Of a DNA stretch of 64,000 bases, positions 16,511-52,023 are shown one piece after another. A model generated the notes under the pieces. The model searched no databases, was not told the DNA's origin, and saw nothing but the letters and a program-made list of their open reading frames with translations. The translations under genes were made by a program, and so were the position numbers. Each line of letters begins with the position of its first letter. The first letter of the stretch is position 1. The stretch is taken from assembly GCF_027622875.1 (NCBI RefSeq), contig NZ_JAPZVP010000002.1, positions 235,006 through 299,005 of the forward strand, given 5' to 3'. The stretch comes from Glycomyces luteolus. Its GTDB lineage: Bacteria > Actinomycetota > Actinomycetes > Mycobacteriales > Micromonosporaceae.

Positions 16511-16604
<94 letters not shown>

Positions 16605-16732: not shown

Positions 16733-17626
16733 ATGATCCGCAACAGCGAACCAGCCTCCCGACGCCTCACCCCGACCCGCCGCAACCTCCTGCGGATCGG
16801 CGTGCCCGCCGCGGCCGTCCTCGTCGGCGGCGGCGCGATAGCCACGGTCGCCGCCAACGCCTCGGAGAACGGGATCGTCTCGCTCTTCGGCCCCTCCCGC
16901 GAGGACCTCGAAGCCGACCTCAAGACCCGGATCGACGAATACCTCGCGGGCACCGGCACCGCCGTCGAAGCCTCCGTCGCCATCGAGCGCGGCGACATGC
17001 ACCTCGACTACAACCCCGAGCAGACCCACATCACCGCCTCCATCGTCAAAGTCGAGATCCTCGCGATGGTCCAGCAGTACTGGGGCTCGGTCGACGCGAT
17101 CCCCGAGGACCAGCGAGAGCAGTTGCGGCTCATGATCACCGAGTCCGACAACAACTCGACGACCACCCTCTACAACTACCTCGGCGGCGTCGCGGCCCTC
17201 GAAGCCGCCCACGAGCGCTACGGCCTCCAGAACACCACCGTCGACGCCCAGGGCCGCTGGGGCGTCGGCTGGTCCAGCGCCCCGGACCAGCTCATCCTCA
17301 CCGACCTCAACCTCTATGAAGGCGTCCTCACCGAGGAGCAGGTCGACCTCGGCCGCGAACTCATGGGCGCCGTGATCGAAGAGCAGGCCTGGGGCATCTC
17401 GGCCGCCGCCGCGGAAGGCGAGACCGTCTGGCTCAAGAACGGCTGGGACGTCGAGTCGCAGCTCGACGGACTCTGGGTCGTCAACTCGATCGGCGTCCTC
17501 GGCGGCGACGGCGACGCCCCCGTCAAGCTCGCCGTCCTCACCAGCGGCGCCGTCGACGACGTCGAAGGCATCCCGATCGTGGAGGAGATCGCCAAGATCG
17601 CCCGCGACGTCATCGAGACCGAGTAG
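16733..17626 (+). CDS. Exported class A beta-lactamase-fold serine hydrolase, copy 1
   Basis: A 297-residue protein with a twin-arginine-like signal (RRNLLRIGVPAAAVLVGGGA, about residues 16-35). It keeps the active-site S103-x-x-K106 (SIVK) and S138-D139-N140, while the usual KTG triad is KNG (235-237, followed by W). The fold is that of beta-lactamase/PBP enzymes. The altered third motif argues against efficient beta-lactam hydrolysis and for a peptidase, esterase or non-catalytic role in the envelope. It is paralogous to the next gene. A leaderless start is likely. Confidence 0.87.
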   Translation: MIRNSEPASRRLTPTRRNLLRIGVPAAAVLVGGGAIATVAANASENGIVSLFGPSREDLEADLKTRIDEYLAGTGTAVEASVAIERGDMHLDYNPEQTHITASIVKVEILAMVQQYWGSVDAIPEDQREQLRLMITESDNNSTTTLYNYLGGVAALEAAHERYGLQNTTVDAQGRWGVGWSSAPDQLILTDLNLYEGVLTEEQVDLGRELMGAVIEEQAWGISAAAAEGETVWLKNGWDVESQLDGLWVVNSIGVLGGDGDAPVKLAVLTSGAVDDVEGIPIVEEIAKIARDVIETE

Positions 17627-17761: not shown

Positions 17762-18637
17762 ATGACGCAGCACGCCCCCGAACGACGTCCCCCCATGCCC
17801 TCCCGCCGCACCCTCCTGCGCGTCGGCATCCCCGCCGCCGTCGCCCTCGCCGGAGGAGCCGCCCTCTACGGCGCGACTGTCGCCTCCGCCGCCGGACCGA
17901 CGGACGCCGAGCTCTCGACCGAACTCGCCAACCGCATCAAGACCTACTTGGGCACCACGGGAACCCAGACCGTCGCCTCGGTCGCCGTCTCGCGCGGTTC
18001 CCGCCTCATCACCGCCAACAAGACCCTGATCCACGACACCGCCTCCATCGTCAAGATGGAGATCCTCCTGATGCTGTTGGAGAAGTACAGCTCGGTGAGC
18101 GCGATCCCCGCCGACATCCGGGAGCACGCGCGGCAGATGATCGTCTGGTCCAACAACGACTCCGCCACCAAGGTCTACAACCACGTCGGCGGCTGCAGTG
18201 CGCTCTCCGCCGCCCACATCAGGTACGGCCTGCAGTACACGAAGGCCTCCTCCGACTGCCGCTGGGGCCTGACCACCACGAACGCCACCGACCAGCTGAA
18301 GATCATGGGCCAGCTGCTCTACAAGGGCCGGCTCACCCAGGCCGAGGTGGACCACGCGCGCTGGCTCATGGGCGGCGTCGCCTCCGTCCAGCGCTGGGGC
18401 GTCAGCTCCGCACTGAAGACCGGCGAGAAGGTCTGGATCAAGAACGGCTGGGACTCCCGCTCCTCGCTCGGCGGCCTGTGGGTCGTCAACTCGTGCGGGA
18501 TCATCACCAAGTCCGGCGTCCCCTCGATCCGGATGGCGATCCTGACCAGCAAGGCCCCCAACGAGTCCAAGGGCGTCTCGATCGTCAAGGAGATCGCCAA
18601 GATCTCCCGCTCGGTCATCGACAAGGCCGTGCTCTAG
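17762..18637 (+). CDS. Exported class A beta-lactamase-fold serine hydrolase, copy 2
   Basis: A 291-residue tandem paralogue of the previous gene, with twin-arginine-like signal RRTLLRVGIPAAVALAGGAA (about 15-34). It keeps S95-x-x-K98 (SIVK). The SDN motif is S130-N131-N132 and the third motif is again KNGW (227-230). Three Cys in the mature part could allow a disulfide that copy 1 lacks. TACTCT at 17750-17755 lies six bases ahead of the ATG, so this copy seems to have its own promoter and a leaderless message. Function is unassigned; one terminator follows. Confidence 0.87.
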   Translation: MTQHAPERRPPMPSRRTLLRVGIPAAVALAGGAALYGATVASAAGPTDAELSTELANRIKTYLGTTGTQTVASVAVSRGSRLITANKTLIHDTASIVKMEILLMLLEKYSSVSAIPADIREHARQMIVWSNNDSATKVYNHVGGCSALSAAHIRYGLQYTKASSDCRWGLTTTNATDQLKIMGQLLYKGRLTQAEVDHARWLMGGVASVQRWGVSSALKTGEKVWIKNGWDSRSSLGGLWVVNSCGIITKSGVPSIRMAILTSKAPNESKGVSIVKEIAKISRSVIDKAVL

Positions 18638-18726: not shown

Positions 18727-20175
<1,449 letters not shown>

Positions 20176-20256
20176 GGCAGAAATGCTACGCGCCGCCCCT
20201 CGAAGACCTGAACAACGCCACTGCCGGGGCAGCGTGGAGCACTGAGGCGGGCGCCA

Positions 20257-20272
20257 CGGAAAAAATTTTCCG
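20257..20272. repeat. A/T-rich palindrome in the sahH/GNAT gap
   Basis: CGGAAAA and TTTTCCG with two central A form a near-perfect 16-base palindrome, the most A/T-rich spot in this region. It lies about 20 bases upstream of the -35 at 20290 and could act as an UP-element-like tract for that promoter, or as an operator in the divergent region. Confidence 0.45.
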
Positions 20273-20289
20273 GCAACGCGTGTTTCGGC

Positions 20290-20317
20290 TTGACACTGCT
20301 GAGTCTGTGGGTAATAT
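20290..20317 (+). promoter_or_regulatory. Near-consensus promoter of a short structured RNA
   Basis: TTGACA (20290-20295), a 16-base spacer and TAATAT (20312-20317). This is the closest match to the sigma70 consensus that I see in the whole window. Transcription should start near 20324-20326. Confidence 0.75.
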
Positions 20318-20324
20318 TGCAGAT

Positions 20325-20442
20325 ACGCAGCGTCACGGAGATGCGGAGGGCCCACAGGGTCCGGAACCATCACCGAGACGCCGGGGAATACCAAACCGGG
20401 GGGAGTGCCGGGCGGTCTGGGGTGGCCGCCCGGCACATTTTT
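20325..20442 (+). ncRNA. Candidate structured small RNA or leader attenuator of about 118 nt
   Basis: Between the strong promoter at 20290 and a terminator with a T-tract lies a sequence that folds well by eye. GCGTCACGG (20330-20338) pairs with CCGAGACGC (20373-20381) with a single mismatch. It encloses a hairpin GGGCCC (20348-20353) and GGGTCC (20357-20362). A purine-rich linker GGGGAATACCAAACC follows, then the terminator hairpin. It shows no sensible reading frame with a start signal. It may be an independent small RNA, or a riboswitch/attenuator controlling the GNAT gene 72 bases downstream. By eye it matches no riboswitch class I know well. Confidence 0.55.
20405..20442 (+). terminator. 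Intrinsic terminator ending the small RNA
   Basis: GTGCCGGGCGG (20405-20415) and CCGCCCGGCAC (20426-20436) form a perfect 11-bp stem with a 10-base loop, followed by ATTTTT (20437-20442). It is one of very few hairpins in this window with a proper U-tract, and it lies upstream of a gene rather than after one. Confidence 0.85.
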
Positions 20443-20514
20443 GCGCGCTGAACGCGATGCATCCTCATTTATTCGCTTGCACCCCATCCCGTGATGCGAG
20501 ACGGTACGGGGGCC

Positions 20515-21543
20515 ATGAGTGACATTGAGATTCTCCCGATCGATCCCCTCGACACCGACCTCGTCGAGGCGTGGATCGCCATGCAGAACGTCGTCATCGA
20601 GCACGACCGGCCCGGCGACGCCCCTTACAGCCCCGCTCACCAGCGGCTCCGTCTGCTCCTCCATCCGTCCGCCGTCAACGTCGAGCGCTACGCGGCCCGC
20701 GTCGACGGAGTGATCGTCGGCGCCTTCGAACTCGTCCTCTTCCTCAAGGACAACCAGCACCTGGCGAGCTTCGAGCTCGAGGTCCACCCCGACCACCGCC
20801 GCCGCGGCGTCGGCTCCCGCATGCTCGAATCCCTCGAGCAGCGCGTCGCCGAACTCGGCCGCGACACGCTCCTGTCCGGCGTCGCCGAAACCGTCGAAGA
20901 CGCGCCGGAGATGGACCACGCGGGCCGCGAATTCGCCAAGGCCCGCGGCTACGCCGCCGTCGACAACGAGATCCACCGCCGCAACGACCTCTTCGCCGTG
21001 AACGACGACGACCTCGCGAAGCTCTACGCCGACGCCTGGGCCAAGGCCGCCGGGTACGAGCTCGTGCAGTGGGTCAACCACGCCCCCGAGGACATCGTCG
21101 AGGGCATCGCCGCGATGCGCGCCCGCATGTACACCGACCCGCCCATGGGCGAGGAGCTGGACATCCGACCGGCCGTCTTCGACGTCGAGCGGGTCCGCGA
21201 CGAGGAGCGCGTGCGCGCCGACCGCGGCGAACTCCAACTCGCCGCCGCCGTCAGGCACGTCGAGTCCGGCGAAGTCGCCGGGATGACCGACATCCTCGTC
21301 TACCCGGGCAGCGAACTCCATGCGGGCCAGAACGACACGATCGTCGACCCGGCCCACCGCGGCAAGCGGCTCGGCACGATCCTCAAGATCGCCAACCAGC
21401 GCCTGCTGCGCGAGTACCGGCCGAGGCTCCGGTACGTGCACACCTGGAACGCCGAGGTCAACAGCCACATGATCGCCATCAACGAGGCCGTCGGCTACCG
21501 CCGCTTCTGCCGCGACATCGACGTCCAGAAGAAGCTCGCCTAG
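20515..21543 (+). CDS. Tandem-domain GNAT family N-acetyltransferase
   Basis: A 342-residue protein made of two GNAT folds. The N-terminal domain has the acetyl-CoA loop [15 protein letters not shown] (about residues 92-106). The C-terminal domain has [15 protein letters not shown] (about 277-291) and ends with a conserved NEAVGYRRF-type element. This architecture resembles the mycothiol-synthase-like and related actinobacterial acetyltransferases; substrate is unknown. ATG 20515 is chosen by conservation (GTG 20491 is in frame). It follows an attenuator-like RNA and is divergent from sahH. Confidence 0.85.
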
Positions 21544-51913: not shown

Positions 51914-52023
51914 CGGGCCGCGGGGGCGGGGCGCGCGCGCCGCGGGCCCGCCGGCCCGGGGGGCGCCACCCCCCCCCCGGGGCCCCCCCCCCGCCCGCCC
52001 CCCCCCCCCCGCGCCCCCGCGGC
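51914..52023. repeat. G/C-only tract, probable assembly artefact
   Basis: About 110 bases of nearly pure G and C with long C runs lie in the gap between two converging genes, where a strong terminator hairpin would be expected. The texture matches the tract at 16511. The true sequence is probably different or longer. Confidence 0.65.

Follow-up and report, generated by a model that had tools for sequence, protein, structure and literature searches.

The question raised by the intergenic region between sahH and a GNAT gene of Glycomyces luteolus is whether the structured stretch that it contains is a leader of the next gene or an RNA gene in its own right. A sequence-only reading of the window (the whole stretch of DNA analysed, 64,000 nucleotides) had proposed both, a transcriptional riboswitch or, if independent, a small RNA. 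Judged from comparative sequence analysis, the locus is probably a free-standing small noncoding RNA gene of about 100-125 nt, near-universal and single-copy, with its own housekeeping-type promoter and hairpin, acting in trans. In the proposed mechanism, the strong housekeeping-type promoter would drive a transcript beginning at ACGCAGCG, the RNA's own hairpin would close it after about 100-125 nt, and the linker and the 5' end would pair imperfectly, over short stretches, with mRNAs in trans.

Organization of the locus

The region shows the following features, with coordinates in the window:

20290..20317, + strand: predicted promoter TTGACA-16-TAATAT (-35 TTGACA at 20290-20295, 16-nt spacer, TAATAT at 20312-20317)
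20325..20442, + strand: predicted small RNA, putative transcript of about 110-118 nt (fold z -4.14; covariance model R1 match in 291/300 family genomes)
20325..20334, + strand: conserved 5' end ACGCAGCGTC and 5' arm of stem P1 (column conservation, P1 pairing)
20335..20376, + strand: variable middle with inner hairpin (identity 0.77 in the genus; hairpin predicted in the G. luteolus sequence)
20377..20381, + strand: 3' arm of stem P1, GACGC, pairing with GCGTC 20330-20334
20390..20405, + strand: near-invariant linker ACCAAACCGGGGGGAG (CAAACCGGGGGG and AACCGGGGG counts in 82 sequences)
20405..20442, + strand: 3' hairpin, predicted terminator, with 13 pairs and a 6-nt loop, then A and T5 (sequence, compensatory changes)
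18727..20175, - strand: sahH, divergent neighbour outside the RNA gene (Pfam AdoHcyase, E 1.4e-149)
20515..21543, + strand: GNAT gene, next downstream, outside the RNA gene (Pfam Acetyltransf_1, E 3.4e-15)

The promoter, the structured stretch of about 118 bases, the long-range stem with one mismatch, the enclosed hairpin, the terminator hairpin with T5 and the position between sahH and a GNAT gene had all been described by the sequence-only reading, and each of them is borne out. The promoter-like site scores 10/12, with two overlapping sites found against 0.0 expected in shuffles, and the terminator-like hairpin of 13 pairs (arms 20405-20417 and 20424-20436, T5 at 20438-20442) also shows two overlapping sites, against 0.3 expected. 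From the conserved RNA start, 20325, to 20442, the + strand folds at -62.5 kcal/mol (z -4.14), which none of 200 shuffles equals. Stem P1 reads as GCGTC/GACGC extended by CGG/CCG beyond an A-A mismatch, the enclosed hairpin is predicted inside the middle of the RNA, which varies in length and sequence across genera, and Pfam confirms both neighbours. Among 22 Glycomyces genomes, including that of G. luteolus, the columns upstream (20240-20290) have a mean identity of 0.73. The value is 0.91 between the -35 and +1, 0.92 for the 5' arm, 0.77 for the RNA middle, 0.87 for the 3' arm with the linker, 0.99 for the hairpin and 0.93 for the T tract. Since identity falls to 0.48 directly beyond the T tract, the conserved block ends at the same point as the RNA first proposed.

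Covariation of the stems

In an alignment of 29 sequences, pairing holds in 90.4% of the cells, compared with 78.7% once the alignment is shuffled, and 16 pairs show two-sided changes, a number that none of 500 shuffles reaches; when the partner is slid by 1-3 columns, pairing falls to 33-49%. The 3' hairpin shows two-sided (compensatory) changes in 12 of its 13 pairs, the remaining pair being invariant, and in 11 of 13 in an alignment of 99 matches (97 distinct rows), which is fitted to the model and hence biased towards it. At the level of sequence, these compensatory changes prove the pairing of the 3' hairpin. Stem P1 (CGC-A-GCGT with ACGC-GCG) shows 95.9% paired cells and two-sided changes in none of seven pairs among the 29 sequences, and 97.9% paired cells with two-sided changes in two of four pairs, in only four cells, in the model-fitted alignment, a pattern consistent with a paired stem of weak covariation. 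The stem 20330-20338/20373-20381, for which covariation had been suggested as a check, is therefore nearly always paired, but it covaries poorly. The inner hairpin shows 71.7% pairing over five pairs, four of them with two-sided changes, and one further pair at 40%, in a 29-sequence alignment that does not accommodate the Glycomyces insert; it is likely to be real outside Glycomyces.

Promoter and 3' end in other genera

A free-standing bacterial small RNA is expected to have its own promoter, and the predicted one keeps its position: TTGAC precedes the conserved first base at -35 (104 loci) or -36 (14 loci) in 118 of the 119 loci among the matches listed, compared with 8 of 672 control windows. 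Also among the matches listed, the 101 copies which are not of Glycomyces type show conserved T-15 (98), G-14 (101), T-13 (101), A-11 (94) and T-7 (96), columns that read as an extended -10 element, and the 18 Glycomyces-type copies show TAATAT-like boxes in their place. Just upstream of the -35, many genera (L028-L146) contain a conserved AT-rich stretch, TTTCC-GG-AA-like, at roughly -38 to -52 relative to the RNA, a candidate UP element or regulator binding site.

The RNA's own 3' end is marked by the covarying hairpin, together with a T tract that is clear in Glycomyces-type copies only. Of the 116 copies examined among the matches listed (the incomplete sequences L132 and L139 were left out of this count and of the arm-swap analysis below), 20 Glycomyces-type copies contain 3-6 T in 8 nt and the remaining 96 contain 1-4. 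The T5 first noted in G. luteolus thus holds for Glycomyces-type copies, but most copies of other genera show no T tract, which counts against the free-standing reading.

Distribution

The family is taken here as Micromonosporaceae in the GTDB sense, which holds both Micromonospora and Glycomyces. BLAST with a 201-base query matches 27 of the 61 relatives searched, namely all 22 genomes of the genus (that of G. luteolus included), five of 15 from the rest of the family, and none of 24 from the rest of the order. A DNA pattern search over GTDB species genomes gave at least 119 stretches; the matches listed include Micromonospora, Actinoplanes and relatives, Catellatospora, Asanoa, Phytohabitans, Hamadaea, Stackebrandtia, Glycomyces and others, as well as some MAGs, one of them labelled Streptosporangiaceae. 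The covariance model R1, built on 29 sequences with mostly pattern-found training copies, has matches (E up to 0.01) in 291 of the 300 genomes of the family, among them 276 of 282 of good quality, and in 40 of 44 genera. Among the matching family genomes, 290 contain one copy and one contains two, with equal scores (G599:C6:134254-134370 and C12:255087-255203). The nine genomes missed by R1 comprise three of genus g12, two of which are single-contig, five assemblies of 610-1080 contigs and one of 350 contigs (G629). When the filters are relaxed and E values up to 1 admitted, seven of them still show nothing and two show only chance-level matches, so the RNA is likely to be truly lost or strongly diverged in g12; another genome of this genus shows a weak R1 match of 48 bits.

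All 42 R1 matches among the 249 genomes of the order sample and all three among the 246 genomes of the class sample fall in the family; of the misses, 187 in the order sample and 223 in the class sample are known as totals rather than genome by genome. With laxer filters, none of 39 non-family genomes matches R1, in a set that has no positive genome, the positives of the model coming from the family, order and class searches. The RNA is a near-universal single-copy gene of Micromonosporaceae in the GTDB sense. Given this, its near-invariant 12-nt core and its presence in 40 of the 44 genera sampled, the RNA likely does something that family members rarely dispense with. Micromonosporaceae are major antibiotic producers, and, to our knowledge, few actinobacterial small RNAs are understood.

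Linker, 5' end and mode of action

Since the search pattern itself selects for ACGCAGCGT and CAAACCGGGGGG, pattern-found copies were excluded from the conservation count, and both motifs were judged only on 82 distinct sequences found by BLAST or the model. Among these, CAAACCGGGGGG is unbroken in 78, AACCGGGGG is present in all 82, and the first nine bases of the RNA, ACGCAGCGT, are 87-100% conserved per column. The linker and the 5' end are the putative working surface of the RNA, which would most likely act in trans by short imperfect pairing with mRNAs, a mode favoured here over a protein partner. According to the energy model, the CC of the linker pairs with a GG just 3' of it and the mean unpaired probability of the G run is 0.21-0.72, so that a simple open seed is not favoured; this local pairing counts against the preferred reading. 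An intramolecular G-quadruplex was judged not conserved, by eye, the Actinoplanes copies reading GCGGTACC instead of the first G tract.

The linker complements and the kgd leader tests gave no convincing mRNA target. A long antisense complement of the linker, CCCCCGGTTTGG, was rejected as a target site in G. luteolus, where its sole occurrence is at the RNA gene; a set of 12 genomes has 17 matches, 12 at the RNA gene and five others in three genomes. The 10-nt complement CCCCCCGGTT shows 101 matches in the same number of genomes, 12 of them the gene itself and 89 others, against 28 for a reversed control that is not dinucleotide-matched. Among the CCCCCCGGTT matches listed, 23 of 30 loci were viewed, and these led to the leader of kgd, which we take from its sequence to be the gene of 2-oxoglutarate dehydrogenase E1, in G. 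luteolus and one sister genome. The G. luteolus kgd leader contains 12 nt complementary to the linker, then downstream a site for the 5' end of the RNA, and it also holds ACGCAGCGTC, which resembles the RNA 5' end; CCACGCAGCGTC is found exactly once in the genome, inside this leader. In 29 of 30 kgd leaders (the incomplete L296 was left out), ACGCAGCGT is present in 13 of 13 Glycomyces (L267-L279) and none of 16 of other genera, and CCCCCCGGTT in three of 29. As a null control, 576 windows taken from the G. luteolus window were counted when pairing as well as the kgd leader, and 13 of 15 genomes were scored. For the RNA 5' end, the counts are 6/576 in G. luteolus and 89, 223, 483, 89, 55, 326, 23, 535, 70, 429, 251 and 505 in the next 12 genomes; for the linker, the 13 genomes give 1, 0, 0, 37, 3, 18, 289, 163, 369, 347, 438, 67 and 572 of 576. 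Therefore kgd was rejected as a target, since it fails against the null windows in most other Glycomyces and its linker pairing is strong only in the clade of discovery. In addition, judging from a -10-like TACCCT, transcription of kgd probably starts downstream of the C run in its leader. The failure of kgd and the lack of another CCCCCGGTTTGG site in G. luteolus both count against antisense action.

It is possible, though we consider it unlikely, that the free-standing RNA does not act as an antisense RNA but uses its invariant linker and its two helices to bind a protein or a large complex (RNA polymerase, the ribosome or a regulator). A 12-nt core unbroken in 78 of 82 sequences of a family-wide single-copy gene resembles a recognition site, and the G. 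luteolus genome contains no exact 12-nt complement apart from the gene itself. However, short seeds would slip past a 12-nt test, and the 10-nt CCCCCCGGTT is more frequent than its reversed control, albeit one not matched in dinucleotides. No Rfam family matches, a comparison that takes in models of the 6S and Ms1 type to the extent that Rfam contains them, and we know of no protein partner of this RNA. More tentatively still, the RNA might represent a new housekeeping family, the hallmark of one bacterial family, the invariant core AACCAAACCGGGGGGA of which binds a protein or a large complex and is not an antisense seed; if so, it would be a global regulator of 6S or Ms1 standing, unrelated to either. 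Because the gene is short and bounded, its role is directly open to deletion and pull-down.

Gene order and relation to the downstream gene

A leader of the riboswitch type would show a consistent regulated gene downstream and an alternative pairing between the aptamer part and the terminator, and neither was found. Among the 119 loci listed, the next gene on the same strand is sahH in 68, a HTH_31/DUF5753 gene (named from Pfam on one representative) in 20, GNAT in 15, another gene in three and unknown in 13. manA is upstream on the same strand in 94 loci, and downstream and reversed in 11, which are ten Glycomyces-type loci and that of Catelliglobosispora (L139); sahH is upstream and reversed in 16 loci, including those 11. 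In the Glycomyces-type loci and L139, the RNA, its promoter and its terminator are together inverted with respect to manA and sahH, and this unit has apparently been turned round between the two genes twice. Such an inversion is compatible with a self-contained gene, but not with a leader of sahH. In the arm-swap test (36 sequences), the upstream part gives -16.5 kcal/mol with its own terminator arm and -16.2 with swapped arms, and 17% of 5000 permutations are as good, so no coevolution is seen between them; the hairpin's own ascending arm, the positive of the test, passes with none of 5000 permutations as good.

It is very unlikely that the RNA is a cis-acting leader, a riboswitch or attenuator that controls the gene behind it, be this sahH, as in many genera, or GNAT, as in Glycomyces. 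Such leaders typically combine a 5' structure with a terminator, and the 68 same-strand sahH neighbours and the constant GNAT, which follows the RNA in all 22 Glycomyces genomes and all 15 Glycomyces-type loci, count for such a leader and against the free-standing reading; within Glycomyces, and in that genus alone, gene order leaves room for a cis effect on GNAT. But the downstream gene varies between genera, the unit is inverted away from sahH, the upstream part and the terminator arm are not coupled, and no Rfam riboswitch matches. The riboswitch half of the initial proposal is therefore not supported, and the independent small RNA is, on account of its promoter position, covarying 3' hairpin, inversion and near-universal single copy. 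The free-standing gene is independent of any one downstream gene, three of which recur. In Actinoplanes-type loci (L030, L048, L055, L059 and others), the HTH_31/DUF5753 gene lies behind the RNA where sahH is missing, and in many of them an OmpR-type response-regulator gene is next.

Coding potential

The length between two conserved motifs falls into frame classes of 65, 37 and 17 among the 119 loci listed; since all three classes are represented, no conserved reading frame runs through the RNA, as expected of a free-standing bacterial small RNA. That the RNA is a short messenger encoding a small protein is hardly credible: an 80-codon open reading frame from a GTG spans 20280-20522 and GGGGGG is directly followed by ATG in many copies, but the middle varies in length across all frame classes, and the ATG, placed at the foot of a tight hairpin, is missing in Glycomyces-type copies.

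Comparison with known RNAs

At gathering score, no Rfam 15 family, the SAH and SAM riboswitches among them, matches the window or any of 15 loci from other genera. When E values up to 10 are admitted, three sub-threshold matches appear near the site, the best being PtaRNA1 with 21.2 bits against the 47 needed, which agrees with the initial failure to recognise a known class. The SAH riboswitch and other sahH-linked riboswitches stand beside sahH, and the present RNA likewise adjoins sahH in many genera, but it has no Rfam match and is often divergent from sahH or found without it. The 6C RNA (RF01066) is a small actinobacterial RNA with homopolymer runs, and shows C runs in its loops, whereas the present RNA has a G run in its linker. 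The 6C RNA was also considered as a partner of this G run and rejected, as RF01066 has no match in the G. luteolus genome or in the window.

The RNA family is absent from Rfam and was not found in print among the titles and abstract openings listed for the open-access literature; the portions of PMC11109978 and PMC8632094 covered by term searches contain no mention of the genera sought. As described in excerpts of two papers, scr5239 of Streptomyces coelicolor is 159 nt long and regulates metE and others (PMC4365011, PMC7025569). By this description it is comparable as an actinobacterial small RNA that is kept within its group and is thought to act on mRNAs (PMC4365011, PMC7025569). It differs in its length and in its range, the present RNA having turned up in none of the class-level genomes beyond its own family. 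Ms1 RNA, in the passages available of PMC9130861, binds core RNA polymerase, shows conserved synteny in actinobacteria, with many Micromonosporaceae genera tabulated, and is flanked by a HAD hydrolase gene; scr3559 lengths of 227-235 nt are quoted, and Glycomycetales are named in a passage on groups without detected Ms1 (PMC9130861). Both are small RNAs with conserved synteny in actinobacteria, but Ms1 is longer, and the HAD-hydrolase synteny is not found at the present RNA, which has manA, sahH, GNAT or HTH genes as neighbours.

Other features of the window

Beside sahH, two adjacent same-strand genes of similar size (16733-17626 and 17762-18637) look alike by eye; the second shows no Pfam match at 0.001, and the first matches Pfam Beta-lactamase2 (E 3.4e-09). 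Between a ThiF/rhodanese gene and the next gene, positions 16511-16604 contain a G13 run and then long C runs (30, 17 and 17), which may have arisen in assembly or sequencing or may form a slippery tract, and a further cluster of C runs (10, 10 and 13) is found at 51969-52010.
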